NCBI GenBank assembly: GCA_030528025.1
Contig: JAUMZP010000001.1
Span: forward strand, 372,001 to 436,000
Length of the DNA stretch: 64,000 nt
Reading direction: 5' to 3'
DNA from: Candidatus Saccharimonadota bacterium
GTDB taxonomy: Bacteria > Patescibacteriota > Saccharimonadia > Saccharimonadales > Saccharimonadaceae
Of this stretch, positions 4,628 to 56,619 are shown piece by piece. A model generated the notes under the pieces. That model searched no databases. It was not told the origin of the DNA and was given only the letters and a program-made list of their open reading frames with translations. Position 1 is the first letter of the stretch, and each line of letters begins with the position of its first letter. The translations under genes and the position numbers were made by a program.

Positions 4628-4663
4628 GCCGCTTTATCCTCGCGCTTTCCATAGCCAAATCGG

Positions 4664-4707
4664 TATAAGGGCAAATATCTCTCCAGTATGTTCATTTCTT
4701 GCACAGG
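4664..4707 (+). repeat. Copy A of a recurring intergenic element (5' half only)
   Basis: These 44 bases match 50527-50570 at 35 of 44 positions without gaps, including TATAAGGG, ATGTTCA and TCTTGC. The element lies about 180 bp before the start of the next gene, the same position as the other two copies. The 3' hairpin half found in copies B and C is not recognisable here. Confidence 0.6.
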
Positions 4708-4844
4708 AATCGTTCGCAGCTATGATGAGTAGTTTCCGTTATGGAACTGGCGAAGTAAAGTGCTATTTTGCGATTGAGCAGAATATACTATAATAGATTA
4801 CAAACAATTGTGTAAGCAATACAAGATAAGGAATCGATAATCCA

Positions 4845-26906: not shown

Positions 26907-27033
26907 GATATCACGCGAGATACACCACCAATCATCGCCCAACATACCTCTTGTTACCATAAGCACAATAGTGTTATAATGCGAACGTTATATTTAAGGT
27001 GTTGTGTTTCACAACAAAAAGGAGGGTTATTGC

Positions 27034-28437
27034 ATGAGGGAACTCAGGCAAGCAAAACATACTAGATGGAGAACACTCACGCGTGTGTCTCAGGCTGGGT
27101 GCCTGGTAGCGGTAGCCGCTATGGTGGCATTGTTTGCCCAGCCTACACGGGCTGCCCAAGAGGTGGCCTGGAAGGACCAAGCTGGCTCTGGCACAAAGAA
27201 CTGGTCGGCAATGGCTGGCTCGGCAGATGGCACCAAGCTCGTCGCAGCAGTGAATGTCGGGAATGTCTACACCTCGACAGACAGCGGTGTCACCTGGATG
27301 GAACGACCAATAACTGGCCTTACCACTCCGCAAAAGTGGACGGCTCTTGCCAGCTCGGCCGATGGTAGCAAGATTGCTGCCTTTTACCAATGGGGTGGCT
27401 ACATGTACACCTCGAATGACTCAGGTGCTACCTGGATGAAAAATGGTCTCCCAGGAGCTGCTGGAGACTGGGTGTCTGTGACGAGCTCGGCAGACGGCAC
27501 CAAGCTTGCCGCTGTAGCAACCAACCGTGGGGTATTTACCTCCACCAACTCTGGCGCAAGCTGGAAAGAGCAAGCCAACCCAGGAGCGAAGAAGTGGACA
27601 TCAATCGCTGGCTCAGCAGACGGCACCAAGCTTGCTGCAACTGTTGCTGACGGTGTTGTCTACACTTCGACAGACAGTGGCGTCACCTGGACAGAGCAAG
27701 CAGCCGCTGGCACTCAGAAGTGGACATCGATCGCGAGCTCAGCCGATGGCATGAAGCTTGCCGCTACAGTCAACGGTGGCAAGATTCACACCTCGACAGA
27801 CGGTGGCGTCACCTGGAAAGAGCAAGCTGCATCAACCCCACAGAAGTGGACATCGATCGCTAGCTCGACAGACGGCATGAAGCTCGCTGCTACAGTCAAT
27901 GATGGTAAGATCTACACCTCAGACGATGGTGGTGTCACCTGGATGGAAAATGACAGCGCTGCTACCGGTGCGTGGTCGGCTGTTGTTATGTCAGACGACG
28001 GTGCACGCCTTGCTGCAGCGCTCAACGGTGGCAACATCAACACAGCAACAGCTAAGGACAAGCCAGTTGTGCAGCCTACACCTGCTGCACCAGCTCCAGT
28101 GACTCCAGCGCCCGCAACTCCGGCGCCCGCTACACCTGCTCCTGCCACGCCCGCACCTGCGACACCTGCCCCAGCAACTCCGGCCCCGGCAAATCCTGCA
28201 CCAGCTACACCTGCCGCACCAGCACCCGCAACTCCAGCTGCTCCAGCACCTGTAGCAGAACCTGCACAGGCAAATCCGGCACCGGCAGCTGCACCCGCAG
28301 CACAGCCTGCCGCTCCTGCTAAGCACGAAGAGCCAGCTCTCGCCGACACCGGTGACAGCGTATGGCTCGTCGCTGCCCTCGCAGCTAGCGGTCTTGGCGC
28401 CGGGAGCTTCTGGTTCGTCAAGAGCCGCAAGAACTAG
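27034..28437 (+). CDS. Surface protein: BNR-like repeats, Pro/Ala stalk, LxxTG-like anchor
   Basis: Signal segment at about 18-40 (ending near RAAQ). About seven tandem 40-45-residue repeats follow, each with a WxSxAxSADGxKLxA core and a YTSTDSGVTW end, as in BNR/sialidase beta-propeller repeats; no sialidase catalytic residues were recognised. A Pro-Ala-Thr stalk spans about 350-430, then LADTGDS, a TM helix and KSRKN, the layout of a sortase substrate. AAAAAGGAGGG before ATG 27034 and a TATAAT further upstream give an ordinary leadered mRNA. The GH16 protein at 29094-31781 carries the same repeats. Likely a cell-surface binding protein. Confidence 0.85.
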   Translation: MRELRQAKHTRWRTLTRVSQAGCLVAVAAMVALFAQPTRAAQEVAWKDQAGSGTKNWSAMAGSADGTKLVAAVNVGNVYTSTDSGVTWMERPITGLTTPQKWTALASSADGSKIAAFYQWGGYMYTSNDSGATWMKNGLPGAAGDWVSVTSSADGTKLAAVATNRGVFTSTNSGASWKEQANPGAKKWTSIAGSADGTKLAATVADGVVYTSTDSGVTWTEQAAAGTQKWTSIASSADGMKLAATVNGGKIHTSTDGGVTWKEQAASTPQKWTSIASSTDGMKLAATVNDGKIYTSDDGGVTWMENDSAATGAWSAVVMSDDGARLAAALNGGNINTATAKDKPVVQPTPAAPAPVTPAPATPAPATPAPATPAPATPAPATPAPANPAPATPAAPAPATPAAPAPVAEPAQANPAPAAAPAAQPAAPAKHEEPALADTGDSVWLVAALAASGLGAGSFWFVKSRKN

Positions 28438-29093: not shown

Positions 29094-31781
29094 CTACGAT
29101 CGCCGCTTACGGAGTATCCACACCCCGCTACCGCCTAGGGTAATTGCACCGAGGGCAGTGGGGAGGATGCTATCGCCAGTGTTGGCAAGGAGTCCGCTGC
29201 GGTGGGATGAGCTGCCCGCAGAGTCGGCGTGCGACGTGTCTTCGTAAATGGCGATGGGGTCGAGGATTGTGCCATTGGCAGTGCCGTCTTCGTCACCAAA
29301 GCCACCGTCGGTTACGTCGTAAGCGATTGTTGTACGTGTACCGCTGGGGTTTGTGCCAAAGTTGATCCGGCTTGTGATATCTTCGATGACTGAGCCACCT
29401 TTGGCAAGTTTGAACACGGTGAGGCGGCTTGGGTCGCGATAGCGCGTGCTGAGTGTGAGCGCTACATGAGTGGTGTAGCCAGTGTGCGCTGTGCGCCCAG
29501 CACAGGTGATGGTGAAGCGAACACTATTGCGCAGAACTCGGCCTTGGTACTGCTGGGGAGCAGCTGCTTGCTCGGCAGAAGCAATGTGGCTGCAGGGTGT
29601 ACCGGCTGTAGCGAGCGATACCGCACCGCCGAGTGGCTGGGGTATGGTAGTCGAGTTGGTCGGCTGTGTGGGCTGCTTGGGTGTTGTTATAGATGGAGCT
29701 GATGTAATGGCGTTTAGCCGAGCTTGGAGAGCAGCTTTTTTGCGTGTGTCCTTGACGGCGGCAATGCGGGCTTGAGCAGCAGCGATGTCTGCAGGGCTCT
29801 TGCTGGCTTCGGCTCGAGCTACAGCAGTCTTGGCAGCGGCCAGTGTGCCGTCCTCTATCTGCTGGGTAGTGGTGTATACCATGCCACCATAGGCAGCGGC
29901 CGCGAGTTTACTCCCATCGGCCGAGCTAGCAAGAGCAGACCAGTTGGGTGTGCCAGCCGATGTCTGGGCGGTCCACGTTGCACCGCCATCGGTTGAAGTA
30001 TAGATGTAGCCACCGCCGCCTGCTGTTGCGGTTAGGGTGTTGCCATCGGCCGAGATGGTTGCAGCTGTCCAGTTGTGTCGGCCATCGGCACTGCGCTCCG
30101 TCCACGTCGCACCGCTGTCGGTCGAAGTATAGATATAGCCACCAGCAGCTGTTGCCACCAGCTTTGTACCATCGGGTGAGCTGGCAATTGATGTCCAGGT
30201 GCGGCTGCCAGCTTGGGTGCGCTCTGTCCACGTCGCACCACCGTTCGAAGAGGTGTAGATGGCACCGCCTTCGACGACTGCAGCTAGTTTATTGCCATCA
30301 GCCGAGCTTGTGACGGCGCGCCATTTGCGGCTGCCCGACTTTGGTTGCTCCGTCCACGTTGCACCGCCATCGCGCGAGGTATAGATAGTGTGATCTTTGG
30401 CGACGGCTACGAGTTTGCTCCCATCAGCTGAGCTCGCGATCGACATCCAGTTGATCGTCCCGCTCATCGCATGCTTATGCCACGTTGCACCGCCGTCTTG
30501 CGATGTCATGATGTAGCCACCCCAATCGTAGAGTGCCGCGAGTTTGCTCCCATCAGCCGAGCTTGCGATGCTTACCCAGTTGCGCACCTCCGACTTTGGC
30601 TGCTCCGTCCACGTTACACCACCGTCTTGCGAGGTGTGGATTGTGCCACCCCAGGCAGCGGCAGCAAGCTTACTGCCATCGGCTGAGCTAGTGAGGGCAG
30701 ACCATTTGCGGTCACTGGCGGCATTCTGCTTGGTCCATTTTGTACCGGTTGCTGGCACTGGTGTCTCGGGTGGCTGCGTACCCGCACCCTTTTGGAAGAC
30801 GCGCACATAGTCGATCAGCATCGTCTGCGTGGGGAATGGCTCAGATGGGTCGATAGGGCTGAGATTTTTGCTAATCTCGACGTAGTCGTTGAGGATGAAT
30901 TGCCAGCCACGGTGGAATGCACCATTGATATTCTCTTGGCTGGCGACCTTCGTCAGTGGCTCGGCATCCTTTCTAGGGAAGATGTTGCCATCGTCGGTAG
31001 GGCTCACATGGTAGCGATATACCTTGATGGGCTCGTCGTCTACAAAGTACTTGACCGTCGTACCATCATATTCAACCGCCCAGGTGTGCCACTCGTACGC
31101 AAACGAGCCTGGCCGCGCACCAGCATAGTGCTCGCCACTGTGCGATAGGGCACGCGTCCGCCAGCCAGTCTTCCATTTGGCATCGGTGCCGTGGTGGTAG
31201 CACGACATGTGTGTGGTAGACCACGCGTAATTTGGTGTCGATGAGTACCACTCGATGATGTCTAGCTCGCCGTATGGGTCGTTGGCCTTGGGGTTGTCGT
31301 TGCAGTTTTGCAGGGTATTGCCACTTACCATCCACAGCGACGGCCGTGTGCCACGCTTGCCATTCCAATTAAACTTTGCCCGAATTTCTGCTCGGAATGG
31401 CTTGGTACCATCGACAACCTTGGCCTTGTTCTTGACCCGCCCACTGAGGTAGCGAGTCGTGGTGCCGCTCGGACATGGCTGCTCGCTCATGTTGGCGCTC
31501 GTGAGTGGCTCACTGAGGTTGCTCACGCAGTGGCGCTGCGTGGTGATCTCGAGATGACTGTTGGCGACCTTGAGATTGTTTGGGCTGTAGGCGAGGTGCG
31601 TATTGCGCAGATTATCAGTATTTTGCTTGAGTATATCCCACTCGCCAGACACGGCCGAGCCAGTAAACTCGTCGTGCCACACCATACCCCACTGGTCGGC
31701 ATGCGTCGTGCCATGATAGAGAAGTGCAAGCAGCGCAGCACTACTCAGTACCACAAGCACAATGATTGCTTTTTTTACCAC
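29094..31781 (-). CDS. Surface-anchored GH16 glycoside hydrolase with BNR-like repeats
   Basis: 895 aa: signal segment (1-28), GH16 domain (about 30-335) with the catalytic GELDIIEW motif (nucleophile Glu172, Asp174, acid/base Glu177), about seven BNR-like repeats (about 345-650; DGSKLAA...GGAIYTSxDGGxTW), a short Ala/Lys-rich helical segment, a beta-rich domain with two Cys, then LLANTGDS, a TM helix and RKRRS as sortase-type anchor. GH16 enzymes cut beta-1,3/1,4-glucans or related galactans, so a wall or extracellular polysaccharide of the host or community is a plausible target. GTG start with GAGGGGAT upstream; minus-strand TATAAT at 31825-31830. Confidence 0.88.
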   Translation of the reverse strand: MVKKAIIVLVVLSSAALLALLYHGTTHADQWGMVWHDEFTGSAVSGEWDILKQNTDNLRNTHLAYSPNNLKVANSHLEITTQRHCVSNLSEPLTSANMSEQPCPSGTTTRYLSGRVKNKAKVVDGTKPFRAEIRAKFNWNGKRGTRPSLWMVSGNTLQNCNDNPKANDPYGELDIIEWYSSTPNYAWSTTHMSCYHHGTDAKWKTGWRTRALSHSGEHYAGARPGSFAYEWHTWAVEYDGTTVKYFVDDEPIKVYRYHVSPTDDGNIFPRKDAEPLTKVASQENINGAFHRGWQFILNDYVEISKNLSPIDPSEPFPTQTMLIDYVRVFQKGAGTQPPETPVPATGTKWTKQNAASDRKWSALTSSADGSKLAAAAWGGTIHTSQDGGVTWTEQPKSEVRNWVSIASSADGSKLAALYDWGGYIMTSQDGGATWHKHAMSGTINWMSIASSADGSKLVAVAKDHTIYTSRDGGATWTEQPKSGSRKWRAVTSSADGNKLAAVVEGGAIYTSSNGGATWTERTQAGSRTWTSIASSPDGTKLVATAAGGYIYTSTDSGATWTERSADGRHNWTAATISADGNTLTATAGGGGYIYTSTDGGATWTAQTSAGTPNWSALASSADGSKLAAAAYGGMVYTTTQQIEDGTLAAAKTAVARAEASKSPADIAAAQARIAAVKDTRKKAALQARLNAITSAPSITTPKQPTQPTNSTTIPQPLGGAVSLATAGTPCSHIASAEQAAAPQQYQGRVLRNSVRFTITCAGRTAHTGYTTHVALTLSTRYRDPSRLTVFKLAKGGSVIEDITSRINFGTNPSGTRTTIAYDVTDGGFGDEDGTANGTILDPIAIYEDTSHADSAGSSSHRSGLLANTGDSILPTALGAITLGGSGVWILRKRRS

Positions 31782-44269: not shown

Positions 44270-44376
44270 CACTAATATCCAGAGTGCGACGAGGGACTGG
44301 CCCGATGACTCGCCAGCAACCTGCTCGAGAAGCGAGTAAGGTGCTAATTCCAGCCTGTGCGCAGGAAAGATATGAG
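44270..44376 (+). ncRNA. SAM riboswitch aptamer (SAM-I superfamily)
   Basis: The core GAGGGACTGGCCCGATGA, GCAACC, a CTCG/CGAG hairpin and AAGGTGCTAATTCC occur in the order of the SAM-I/SAM-IV superfamily. ATATC (44275-44279) and GATAT (44369-44373) can close P1. It senses S-adenosylmethionine and sits directly upstream of metK with an intrinsic terminator between, so high SAM should stop metK transcription. Assignment to SAM-I versus SAM-IV or SAM-I/IV needs a covariance search. Confidence 0.9.
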
Positions 44377-44390
44377 ACGCGTAAGAAGGC

Positions 44391-44437
44391 AACTCCTTTC
44401 TCGCCTGGCAGCGCAGGATAAGAGAAGGGAGTTTTTT
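44391..44437 (+). terminator. Riboswitch-controlled terminator before metK
   Basis: Twelve-bp stem AACTCCTTTCTC / GAGAAGGGAGTT (44391-44402 with 44422-44433, one G-T pair) ending in six T (44432-44437) that run straight into the metK ATG. Confidence 0.85.
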
Positions 44438-45448
44438 ATGACAGCAACTACTATAGCATCAGCACAATTTCGCACCGCCGAGAGCGTGAGCCCAGGCCAC
44501 CCCGACAAGCTGTGCGACCAAATGAGCGACGCCATCCTTGATGCCTATCTGGCCCGTGACCCACAGGCACGCGTGGCGGTGGAAGTGTGCGGCGGCCATG
44601 GCATGGTGTTTGTGACAGGCGAAGTGACGTCGCAGGCGACGGTGGCAGTGGCACCGATTGTGCAGCGTTTGGCTGGGAGTGAGGTAGAGATAATTGAGCA
44701 CATTACTCAGCAGAGCCCAGAGATTGCTCGTGGTGTGGATGATGGCGGGGCAGGTGACCAAGGCGTGATGATCGGCTATGCTTGCAACGAAACGCCTGAG
44801 CTGCTCCCGCTAGAAACAGTGCTGGCGCGGCGATTGAATCAATTTTTGTATCAACGTTGGCCCTACGATGGCAAAACGCAAGTAACACTGCGTGGTGGGC
44901 AGATAACGGCAATTGTTGCAAGCTTCCAACACGCACCAAAAGACGAATTAACAGAGGTAGTCAAGGAGTGGCTTCAGCAGCAGACGTATGTGAACACATT
45001 TTTTAAGGATAAGCAATATGATGCGCCAGTGCTGCACTGTAACCCAGCAGGGGACTGGCAGATTGGTGGCTTTGCGGCTGATGCTGGCCTGACGGGACGC
45101 AAGCTCATCGTTGACAATTATGGGCCGCGCGTGCCGATTGGTGGTGGGGCCTTTAGTGGTAAGGATGCCACCAAGGTGGATCGCTCGGCAGCATATATGG
45201 CGCGGCGCATTGCGGTGGATTATCTGCGACAGCACCACGCACAGGAGGTGCTGGTGCGCCTGGCGTATGCAATCGGCCACGACCAGCCCGTCGAGGCGAC
45301 TGCCATCATCGATGGGGTAGAGCAGTCCATCACAGGCTACGATCTCAGCCCGCATGGCATTATCACCACGCTCCAGCTCGCCCAGCCCATCTACGAGCCA
45401 ACCGCCCGCTGGGGGCACTTTGGCGAGGGGTTTGTGTGGGATCGGTAG
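44438..45448 (+). CDS. metK: S-adenosylmethionine synthetase
   Basis: Makes SAM from methionine and ATP. GHPDKLCDQ (residues 20-28), GAGDQGVMIGYAC (105-117) and the phosphate-binding GGGAFSGKDATKVDRSAAYMAR loop are intact. At 336 aa it is shorter than the typical 380-400. The ATG at 44438 is preferred to upstream in-frame starts, which lie inside the riboswitch. The ribosome site must be the GAGAAGGGAG of the terminator stem, so the hairpin could also block translation. Confidence 0.95.
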   Translation: MTATTIASAQFRTAESVSPGHPDKLCDQMSDAILDAYLARDPQARVAVEVCGGHGMVFVTGEVTSQATVAVAPIVQRLAGSEVEIIEHITQQSPEIARGVDDGGAGDQGVMIGYACNETPELLPLETVLARRLNQFLYQRWPYDGKTQVTLRGGQITAIVASFQHAPKDELTEVVKEWLQQQTYVNTFFKDKQYDAPVLHCNPAGDWQIGGFAADAGLTGRKLIVDNYGPRVPIGGGAFSGKDATKVDRSAAYMARRIAVDYLRQHHAQEVLVRLAYAIGHDQPVEATAIIDGVEQSITGYDLSPHGIITTLQLAQPIYEPTARWGHFGEGFVWDR

Positions 45449-48383: not shown

Positions 48384-49283
48384 ATGAGTGAGAAAGTACG
48401 GCAAGACCACAACCGAGCACGCAGTGCTGAGCAAACGCCGGGTGCGACGAAACAGGGGCGATATAGAGAAAGTTGGCAGGAGCGAAAATCTGGGTTGCTT
48501 GTACCGGGCCTTGGTGTGGTTGCAACAATGGGTGGTGATGGTGATTTTATCGTCGTTGACAGACGCCGCAGAGCTGACAGGTATCAATCAGCAGAAACGC
48601 CTAACCTTGATGATGATTTATCACAGCATGATGAGGGCGGTAGCCATAATCTAGGCGAAGAAGAGCAGCAGCCACAGAATCCTGAGCAGCTCGATGACAG
48701 TGAGTGGTTTACGCCGCCGGGGGATGTGGAATTTGGCGCCCCTGAATTCAGGCTAATAGAGCGTAGTCTTAAAGATGCTATCGAGTGGGGTGATGATTTG
48801 TTGCTTGCGAGACTGAATGCAGATTGTTTCAGCTCACTACTTAAGGCGCTTTGCTGGCAACTTGATCAACATGCGTATATTTTGGACAATGTACACCAGA
48901 CATCACTCTTGAGAGGTGCTATAGATAGTTGTCTTAATGAAGGTGAAGGTAGTGATCGTGCAATAAAACTATCTGAGATTACTGATAAGATAACAGAGAC
49001 TGATATAACTAAGGGTTGTGGTGATGACGCTGTATATAGAGAAATGCTCAGGCCGCAATGGCTGATGGATCCTGAATGTGACGAAAGGTTGAGAGATAAA
49101 GTAGAAGAACGTATAAAAGATGTCCAAACACTCCTCGGCGATGAGCCTCCCACGAGTAGGGAGATTGTAGACTATGCCGTTCAATTTGAGCAGATTCATG
49201 GTTTCGTCCCGAGTTGCTTTACGCTCTACAATTGGCTGAGCCAGCATCCCGATGTAGGTGAAAAGCACGCTACTGAGCAATAG
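48384..49283 (+). CDS. Hypothetical acidic protein (299 aa) upstream of the KwaB-like gene
   Basis: The first about 110 residues are charged, low-complexity and probably disordered (Glu/Gln/Arg/Asp-rich). Residues about 125-295 form a helical domain (RLIERSLKDAIEWGDDLLLARL, DKVEERIKDVQTLLGDEPPTSREIVDYAVQFEQIHGFVPSCFTLYNWL). The last part resembles a small DNA-binding or adaptor domain, but no family is assigned. It ends 33 bp before the KwaB-like gene on the same strand, so a functional link is possible. No TM helices, so it is not KwaA. Confidence 0.55.
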   Translation: MSEKVRQDHNRARSAEQTPGATKQGRYRESWQERKSGLLVPGLGVVATMGGDGDFIVVDRRRRADRYQSAETPNLDDDLSQHDEGGSHNLGEEEQQPQNPEQLDDSEWFTPPGDVEFGAPEFRLIERSLKDAIEWGDDLLLARLNADCFSSLLKALCWQLDQHAYILDNVHQTSLLRGAIDSCLNEGEGSDRAIKLSEITDKITETDITKGCGDDAVYREMLRPQWLMDPECDERLRDKVEERIKDVQTLLGDEPPTSREIVDYAVQFEQIHGFVPSCFTLYNWLSQHPDVGEKHATEQ

Positions 49284-49316: not shown

Positions 49317-50432
49317 ATGCATAACGAACCAAACACACAAACCCCCACTACCGATACTACCCCGGTAACGCCACCAGAGTCAGCTGCTGTGCCGCAGAGT
49401 GATGCGAGCGCGGCCGCTCATGCCGAGACTCGGCCGGCAAGCACTGCCGCTCAGCCCGCTGCAGACGCGGCTGCCAGCGCCACTGATATATTCCTCTGGG
49501 CCAACCAAGCCGATCGCGATAAAGACCAGCTAGAGGTGGATCTCTTCCTCTTTACCAAGGGCTATACGGTGTATGCCACCAACTATGCAGCTGAGCTCAA
49601 GGCACAGCTCAAGGTGCTCTTCCTCTACGATATGATCACAGCGGTGCAGACGGGTGCAGCGACTGGCCTGATGGTGCGTGACTTTGAGGCGGCCAAGGCT
49701 GAGGAGAATGTCCTTGAGCGCACCACGCTCGATCGAGTAGTGCATGCTCAGGAAGTGATCGAGCAGATCACCTACAGCGAGGCAGATCTCGAGACCTTTA
49801 ACGAGGGTGACCATGAATTCAAGAAGGTTAAGGGTATCATTGCGCGCTTCCGGATGGGTACAGATAGCGAGCCATTCTTCGTGGCCAAGCTGTTGCCCCA
49901 GTCGCAGGTGCTCAAGGGAGCAACCGCCTGGATGTACAGCGGTGGGTCATTCCAGCCATTTGTGGCTGATGCTGGCCTGCGCATCACGCCGGATAATCAG
50001 GTGTTGATTGTCGGCAACGATATCTTTGCCTTTAGCGAGAGCAAATTCGTCCGGCTCTTTGGCTACGATGCCAAAAAGCACGCTGTGGCGGAGGAGAAGA
50101 TCGCTGCTATCACTCAGCAGTTCAAACTTACCTTGCCTGAGGGGCTCACGCTCGACCGCCTGGTGCGCGACACGCCAGCGCTGGTGACTAAACTGCAAAA
50201 GCTCGATCCTGCCCAAGTGACACAAGACCAACTCATCGACCACGCTGACGAAATGGGTCTGGGCCTGATGACGGACGATGCGGCAGGGAGCATCATTATC
50301 ATGGATGCCAAGGATGCGGCTGTTTTTGTCAATCTCCTCAACGACGACTACGTCACGAGCGACCTGACCGGCGTCAAATACGAAATGCGCGGCAAGAAAA
50401 TCCTGCGCGAGAATGAGCAATTGCCGGAGTAG
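49317..50432 (+). CDS. DUF4868 / KwaB-like protein
   Basis: After a disordered Thr/Pro/Ala-rich N-terminus (about 1-60), the protein shows the pattern I recognise from DUF4868: an alpha/beta region ending IARFRMGTDSEPFFVAKLL, then GLRITPDNQVLIVGNDIFAFSESKFVRLFGYDAKK and a helical C-terminus. DUF4868 includes KwaB, the effector-side subunit of the Kiwa anti-phage system. The membrane partner KwaA is not next to it, so this may be a solitary homologue with another role. TACACT lies shortly before the ATG. Confidence 0.6.
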   Translation: MHNEPNTQTPTTDTTPVTPPESAAVPQSDASAAAHAETRPASTAAQPAADAAASATDIFLWANQADRDKDQLEVDLFLFTKGYTVYATNYAAELKAQLKVLFLYDMITAVQTGAATGLMVRDFEAAKAEENVLERTTLDRVVHAQEVIEQITYSEADLETFNEGDHEFKKVKGIIARFRMGTDSEPFFVAKLLPQSQVLKGATAWMYSGGSFQPFVADAGLRITPDNQVLIVGNDIFAFSESKFVRLFGYDAKKHAVAEEKIAAITQQFKLTLPEGLTLDRLVRDTPALVTKLQKLDPAQVTQDQLIDHADEMGLGLMTDDAAGSIIIMDAKDAAVFVNLLNDDYVTSDLTGVKYEMRGKKILRENEQLPE

Positions 50433-50526
50433 GGAAGAGTACTGTATTTTTGTCAGAACAAAGCGTTGATCTCGAGGCTATCACTATTCTCACGCTCCAC
50501 CCCCCACACCCCTTCTGACAGAACAC

Positions 50527-50612
50527 TATAAGGGTAACTATTTCTCTAGAATGTTCACCTCTTGCGCTGGGCTGAAAACATATTATTGCAATCTGTTTTC
50601 ACACTCCATCAG
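50527..50612 (+). ncRNA. Copy B of a candidate structured RNA element
   Basis: Order of parts: TATAAGGG, first helix (GGTaAC with GTTcACC), conserved CCTCTTGCGCTGGGC, second helix TGAAAACA / TGTTTTCA (50573-50580 with 50594-50601), conserved CACTCC-N-TCAG. Copy C has the same conserved blocks with different but still complementary helices. It lies about 185 bp before the GH1 start, upstream of that gene's -10 box. The remaining part of this gap shows nothing else. Confidence 0.55.
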
Positions 50613-50713
50613 ACGAAGTATGGGAAGGGAGAGCGTGCGCGAAGAAAGAGAGACGATGCATCCACTCAATGTTCTATTTTTCTTAATCCTCTGCTGATGG
50701 TACAATAAGCATT

Positions 50714-56013: not shown

Positions 56014-56414
56014 CAAGGCGGTTTTTGTGACGCTCTTTAACAAGTACGTGTAACTGATATCCTCGAGATCGACCATCTGGTAGTGAGCCATGTGGGCACC
56101 CGACCCACGCAAAACCTTGTCGGGCGCACCTTCCTCACAAACACCTCCCAAAAAAACTCCACCTCACATAATTGCTGCGGCAATTATACACATAAGTCTC
56201 TCAAACGATCTTTAGCGGGCTCTCTCGGCCTGGTACAAGCAAAGATCGTCAACAAAAAACAAACACATTTTATGCGAAAACAAACAGGTTTCGCTACCAG
56301 GTGGGTGATCTCGAACCCGCATCGGACTATCTCGCAGTAGCCTGAGCGGAGCGTATCTTTTAGAATCAATAGCGTACATTGCTTTGGCGTATCGCCTACT
56401 GCATTCGGGAACTC
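56014..56414. other. Long mraZ-rsmH intergenic region with several hairpins
   Basis: No ORF is convincing. Inverted repeats seen: CCCGAC/GTCGGG (about 56100-56135), ATAATTGC-TGCG-GCAATTAT (56168-56187) and a CTAC/GTAG plus CAGG/CCTG pair enclosing 56287-56344. The TCGAACCC stretch near 56309-56316 is not part of a tRNA, since the flanking arms do not pair. Confidence 0.45.
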
Positions 56415-56513
56415 TGTAAGGGTCGACACTCCCCGAGTATCGACCTCTTGCGTTGGGCTGAGAATCTGTTGGGACAACAACAGATTCTCACACTCCCTCA
56501 GCAGCAGGTCGAT
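56415..56513 (+). ncRNA. Copy C of a candidate structured RNA element
   Basis: TGTAAGGG, first helix GGTCGA / TCGACC (56421-56426 with 56440-56445), conserved CCTCTTGCGTTGGGC, perfect 13-bp second helix TGAGAATCTGTTG / CAACAGATTCTCA (56459-56471 with 56478-56490), conserved CACTCC-N-TCAG. In addition ATCGACCT (56439-56446) is complementary to AGGTCGAT (56506-56513), so the first helix has a mutually exclusive alternative. It lies about 205 bp before the rsmH start. Confidence 0.55.
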
Positions 56514-56619
56514 CCGCCAAAGCGAGAAGCCGTATGCTTTTGCATTGTAGACATGAGCATAATAATAGCATGCCACCAGGCAAGAATATTATTGCGCACT
56601 ATGCTACCATAAGAAACGT

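Follow-up and report, generated by a model that had tools for sequence, protein, structure and literature searches.

A palindromic repeat of one Saccharibacteria family, probably a non-autonomous mobile DNA element

The repeat described here is very likely a non-autonomous mobile palindromic DNA element that belongs to one family of Saccharibacteria, as judged from comparisons of its copies. The element is dispersed, has been gained in some lineages and is absent from the orthologous sites of relatives. It was first noticed in a 64,000-nucleotide stretch of a Candidatus Saccharimonadota genome (the window), where a sequence-only reading had presented it as a structured RNA in three copies, with a mobile palindromic repeat among the possible explanations.

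Architecture and copies in the window

The alignment of the copies from this genome defines a unit that consists of a closing stem (P1), a three-way junction and two hairpins (P2 and P3). The element is about 135–170 bp long and its P1 about 25–35 bp. The unpaired sequence of the junction is conserved (RCACWCU; GCGYTNGGCTG; CACA), and in this genome P2 reads AAG-GGTCGA...TCGACC-T-CTT and P3 TGAAAAC...GTTTTCA. The cores are alike across genera (CACWCTTTT, GCGTTCGGCTG, AATCGGTTATTGCAACCGATT and CACA). Two covariance models were built, R1 from eight copies and R2 from 35 copies. The features in the window are the following:

50489..50640, + strand: copy B, whole element (covariance model match 50494-50633; pairing of the outer P1 taken from the DNA fold)
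50491..50522, + strand: copy B, 5' arm of P1 (DNA fold; partner at about 50605-50640)
50530..50563, + strand: copy B, P2 hairpin, AAG-GGT...ACC-T-CTT (from the sequence; helix 2 of the covariation count)
50573..50601, + strand: copy B, P3 hairpin, TGAAAACA...TGTTTTCA (from the sequence; helix 3 of the covariation count)
50605..50640, + strand: copy B, 3' arm of P1 (DNA fold)
56378..56527, + strand: copy C, whole element (covariance model match 56382-56522, 116 bits with R1; fold)
56418..56449, + strand: copy C, P2 hairpin, AAG-GGTCGA...TCGACC-T-CTT (from the sequence)
56459..56490, + strand: copy C, P3 hairpin, TGAGAATC...GATTCTCA (from the sequence)
4664..4707, + strand: copy A, decayed fragment in which only the junction and P2 are recognisable (identity to B; covariance model)

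Copy B, which scores 117 bits with R1 and 92.6 bits with R2, has an ORF with a KwaB-like domain on one side and a GH1 gene on the other. Copy C is placed upstream of rsmH, and its fold has a z of about -5 on both strands (DNA parameters). Sequence comparison confirms the blocks and helices that the sequence-only reading described as common to B and C; the spans it reported take in only the inner part of each copy, to which P1 adds about 25–35 nt per side. The match that it noted between A and B is also borne out: the two are identical at 35 of 44 positions, compared to 27 for the best match in 40 shuffled windows and 24 for the next-best site of the real window. The covariance model matches copy A at 4631-4762 with 13 bits (E 0.66). 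Copy A is thus genuine, but it survives as a decayed fragment and not as an intact copy. The alternative pairing that had been proposed as a switch in C uses its own P1 arm and is private to it. Because the P1 arm sequences differ between copies, this pairing is not conserved and the switch is without support.

The KwaB-like ORF (49317-50432; Kiwa defence, PF16162, E 4.9e-11) lies just upstream of copy B and is preceded by a 299-aa ORF (48384-49283) which matches no Pfam family and might be its partner. Elsewhere in the window, two ORFs in opposite orientation (27004-28437 and 29094-31781) contain 126-bp (42-aa) BNR/Asp-box-like repeats; the former ends in a Pro/Ala-rich tail built of 15-bp repeats and the latter also has a GH16 match.

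Distribution, gene context and spread

The covariance model detects nine strong copies in this genome, on both strands, together with decayed and half copies. Nearly all of them lie within 198-471 kb of one 533-kb contig (G000:C9:198000-471000). A nucleotide search gave no match in 59 relatives, 12 of which are of the same genus, and the covariance model likewise found the element absent from these 12 other genomes of the genus. R1 already matched full-length members in other genera of the family; with R2, 41 of the 394 family genomes yielded full-length relatives, and they represent 15 of its 61 genera. Outside the family, the element occurs in a single genome, from another family of the order, and no further family with it was detected in a sample of 380 genomes of the phylum.

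Phage and plasmid collections gave no match to the element, nor did 80 viral contigs to which the model was applied; exact-pattern matches in viral and genome contigs appear to be due to chance, among the matches listed. Rfam 15 (4227 families) has no match for the copies of the window or for the others (searched at the gathering threshold for the window and at E values up to 5 for the loci), and no description of Saccharibacteria repeats or RNAs was found in the open-access literature searched. The element is not described in the sources searched, and its description as new stands as far as tested. The only Rfam match in the window, away from the element, is a SAM riboswitch (RF00162, 77.6 bits, 44272-44376), immediately followed by a gene for SAM synthetase (44357-45448, whose start is probably further in).

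The sequence-only reading had placed all copies on the + strand, 180–205 bp before a start codon and upstream of the -10 box. This arrangement does not hold for the other copies, which occur on both strands and in convergent, divergent and tandem gaps, with no rule of orientation to the neighbouring genes. Inverted doublets are present in five genomes (G076, G117, G398, G019 and G109). The neighbouring genes are unrelated except at a few sites, and none shared by the element loci was found that could be a mobiliser. Several copies lie 3–30 bp past a stop codon, seven genomes from two genera have the element between rplU and parA, and it precedes rsmH both in this genome (copy C) and in G175. 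Long-standing copies may have acquired a role, such as that of transcription barriers. In genus g8 (L247, L249, L250), the rplU-parA gap contains different genes in each species, with elements at the borders, and is possibly a small hot spot of insertion.

The evidence for spread comes from an empty site, from identical copies and from insertions within genes. The copy at C9:470561 separates two genes whose gap is much shorter and free of the element in six genomes of the same genus, whose flanking gene is about 66-73% identical at the nucleotide level. In G073, two 144-bp copies are 100% identical and have unrelated flanks: one is in dnaX (L252), the other joins rnhB to yraN, and the same 48 residues are read in frame in both. 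No target-site duplication is visible by eye around them; the sequence GGCGCC, which stands at either end, is identical to its reverse complement, and a 6-bp duplication is possible. As a result of the second insertion, rnhB and yraN form one ORF through the element (L251 5114-6277), possibly a new fusion protein.

In-frame insertions are also observed in polA and dnaX (L248) of G398, the one in dnaX being an inverted pair, in obgE of G392, in mutM of G122, in mnmA of G117 and in tlyA of G076. At the place of the insertion, MnmA has gained about 44 residues and TlyA about 35-36 relative to solved homologues. Comparison with dnaX of relatives of G398 shows that its dnaX insertions fall in a variable linker. 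In-frame copies are tolerated in linkers or loops of essential proteins. Eight of the nine insertions within genes are in sense orientation, and we infer that such insertions survive only if the element offers a stop-free frame in phase. The dnaX gene has been struck repeatedly in different genera, inside the gene in G073 and G398 and upstream of it in G089 (L208).

Covariation and the P1 arms

The changes between copies largely preserve pairing. Among 8 copies, both partners change in 27 of 49 pairs, compared to a mean of 13.9 after shuffling. Among 35 copies, 90.9% of the cells pair, compared to 57% after shuffling and at most 48% when the partners are slid, and 582 cells show double changes, compared to 168 after shuffling. 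The helix covariation seen by the sequence-only reading is therefore real. Among the observations which that reading had named as speaking against the element were a lack of further copies in related genomes and a lack of significant covariation; both turned out to be false, since the covariance model found copies in relatives and the covariation is strong.

In RNA helices, the passage between Watson-Crick pairs usually occurs via G.U, and a strand tolerates G.U but not A.C. The element has 33 G.U and 55 A.C in 1682 cells (76 and 63, respectively, with the RNAalifold pairs) and 22 one-sided versus 582 double changes. The control, RNase P RNA from the same family, has 279 G.U and 21 A.C, with 151 one-sided versus 448 double changes. 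The ratio of G.U to A.C is thus 0.6-1.2 for the element and 13 for RNase P RNA, the one control RNA on which the comparison rests. As an A.C here is a G.U on the opposite strand, this near-parity indicates that neither strand is favoured. The helices therefore stay complementary without the G.U excess of an RNA from the same genomes, which suggests that pairing is kept up at the DNA level, whether through selection on a strand that folds, through template switching from arm to arm or through both.

These counts bear directly on the headline of the sequence-only reading. A structured RNA (a small RNA, a cis-regulator or an element of mRNA 3' ends) whose copies are dispersed genes or regulators could explain the strong covariation, the conserved unpaired three-way junction, the maintenance between rplU and parA and the copies that closely follow stop codons. 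Such an RNA is very unlikely, however, given the ratio of G.U to A.C, the mixed orientation of the copies at convergent, divergent and tandem sites, their presence in frame within coding genes, the lack of the element in most relatives and the lack of an Rfam match. A regulatory RNA or riboswitch was rejected on the same ground of orientation, as it should have a fixed position and orientation to a class of genes. Of the readings first put forward, it is the mobile palindromic repeat that agrees with the empty sites, the identical copies in unrelated genes and the in-frame insertions. Strong covariation is thus by itself no proof of a functional RNA, and the count of G.U versus A.C is a cheap test which separates pairing at the RNA level from pairing at the DNA level.

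Another possibility, although a doubtful one, is that the palindrome is maintained by mutation: template switching copies one arm onto the other and the stems drift together, whatever first spread the element. This accounts for perfect stems of unrelated sequence, for the scarcity of both G.U and A.C and for compensated changes between copies at the same site in genus g17. It explains neither the conservation of the junction (within-genome identity about 0.7-1.0, compared to about 0.3 for the P1 arms) nor the spread to new sites. Template switching can be combined with the mobile-element explanation.

The identity of the P1 arms within G089, G109 and G076 is 0.27-0.32, which is near random, versus 0.75-0.84 for the cores. 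In the genome of the window, where several copies have related arms, it is 0.49-0.54. A MITE with shared terminal inverted repeats was rejected on these values. The arms have no match beyond chance lengths in 800 kb of this genome, other copies excepted, which rules out guide-like arms as far as these 800 kb are concerned.

The private arms could be explained if P1 were made at each insertion, a target of about 22–28 bp being duplicated in inverted orientation across the element. In G076, the 3' arm of the tlyA copy codes for what looks like a native strand (PDIVL, followed by IDVSFISL), and the 5' arm repeats this 3' arm in inverted form without a mismatch (25/25), which suggests an inverted duplication of the target; the gain of TlyA is also smaller than the 46 residues that a whole element would add. 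The case of obgE, where the 5' arm prolongs a native-looking helix, is suggestive. On the contrary, the arms of the two G073 copies are identical and MnmA has gained the length of the whole element, so that inverted target duplication is not universal; the related arms in the genome of the window also argue against it. Formation of P1 at each insertion is therefore unlikely as a general rule. The corresponding mode of integration, in which a short conserved core inserts, derives the stem that closes it from the neighbouring DNA and persists as a cruciform or hairpin of DNA instead of as an RNA, would be novel and is equally improbable. In genus g17, the compensated stem changes in two same-site pairs indicate that the arms also co-evolve after insertion.

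Mobility and likeness to known repeats

As a mobile element, the repeat would move or be copied as folded single-stranded DNA, either through hairpins at replication forks or through a hairpin-recognising enzyme acting in trans. The conserved junction would be what the mobilising machinery recognises, while any sequence would do in the outer arms of P1, complementarity alone being important. The absence of a Y1 transposase and of a shared neighbour gene points to a trans-acting enzyme or to replication-coupled copying of the folded strand. The following observations count against mobility: no mobilising enzyme was found (Y1_Tnp being the family searched), the identical G073 copies show no target-site duplication by eye, and some old copies persist at orthologous sites (rplU-parA; the g17 pairs), which a purely selfish element would not need.

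REP/REPIN sequences, which are mobilised by a RAYT transposase, are palindromes in alternating orientation (PMC2817692), a trait shared by the element. Its inverted doublets and DNA-level hairpins recall REPINs, so that it might be of the REP/RAYT or IS200/IS605 type, moved by a Y1 (HUH) transposase. However, REPs are 20–40 bp long (PMC3733652), and the element, at 135–170 bp, is several times that length. Y1_Tnp is absent from most carriers, which lack a RAYT-type transposase, and from all the genomes with the highest copy numbers; it is lacking in the genome of the window and in G089, G109, G134, G076 and G073. It is present in some element-free genomes, and its presence is not correlated with that of the element. 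The Y1 (HUH) reading is thus already largely refuted, as far as the Pfam family detects such enzymes, and is very improbable.

MITEs are non-autonomous, under 500 bp, mostly intergenic and bounded by terminal inverted repeats (PMC10969869). The element resembles them in all these respects, but conservation between copies does not extend to its terminal arms, and the G073 copies show no target duplication by eye. No parent insertion sequence was found, Y1_Tnp being the one family searched. The Bacillus cereus repeats bcr1-bcr18 (100–400 bp, dispersed; PMC6542083) are likewise restricted to one bacterial group and have features of mobile DNA. Their mobility is tied to a TTTAT motif (PMC6542083); the element differs from them in that it also inserts in genes.

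The Rickettsia palindromic elements (RPE; Ogata 2000, 2002) insert in frame in many genes (review PMC10969869). Like them, the element is a palindrome of about 150 bp which occurs in small reduced genomes, both between genes and in frame within unrelated coding genes, where it is read as an extra peptide. It differs from RPE, which are selfish elements, by its conserved three-way junction, its private P1 arms, its phylum and its fewer copies per genome. By description, it appears to work like RPE, as it does like the bcr repeats; the likeness to RPE is one of kind, with no homology known. The element would be an apparently independent RPE-like case in an unrelated, reduced and host-dependent lineage, whose targets are genes of replication, repair and translation (polA, dnaX, mutM, obgE, mnmA). 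Such a case would show that small genomes repeatedly gain new protein segments in this way.
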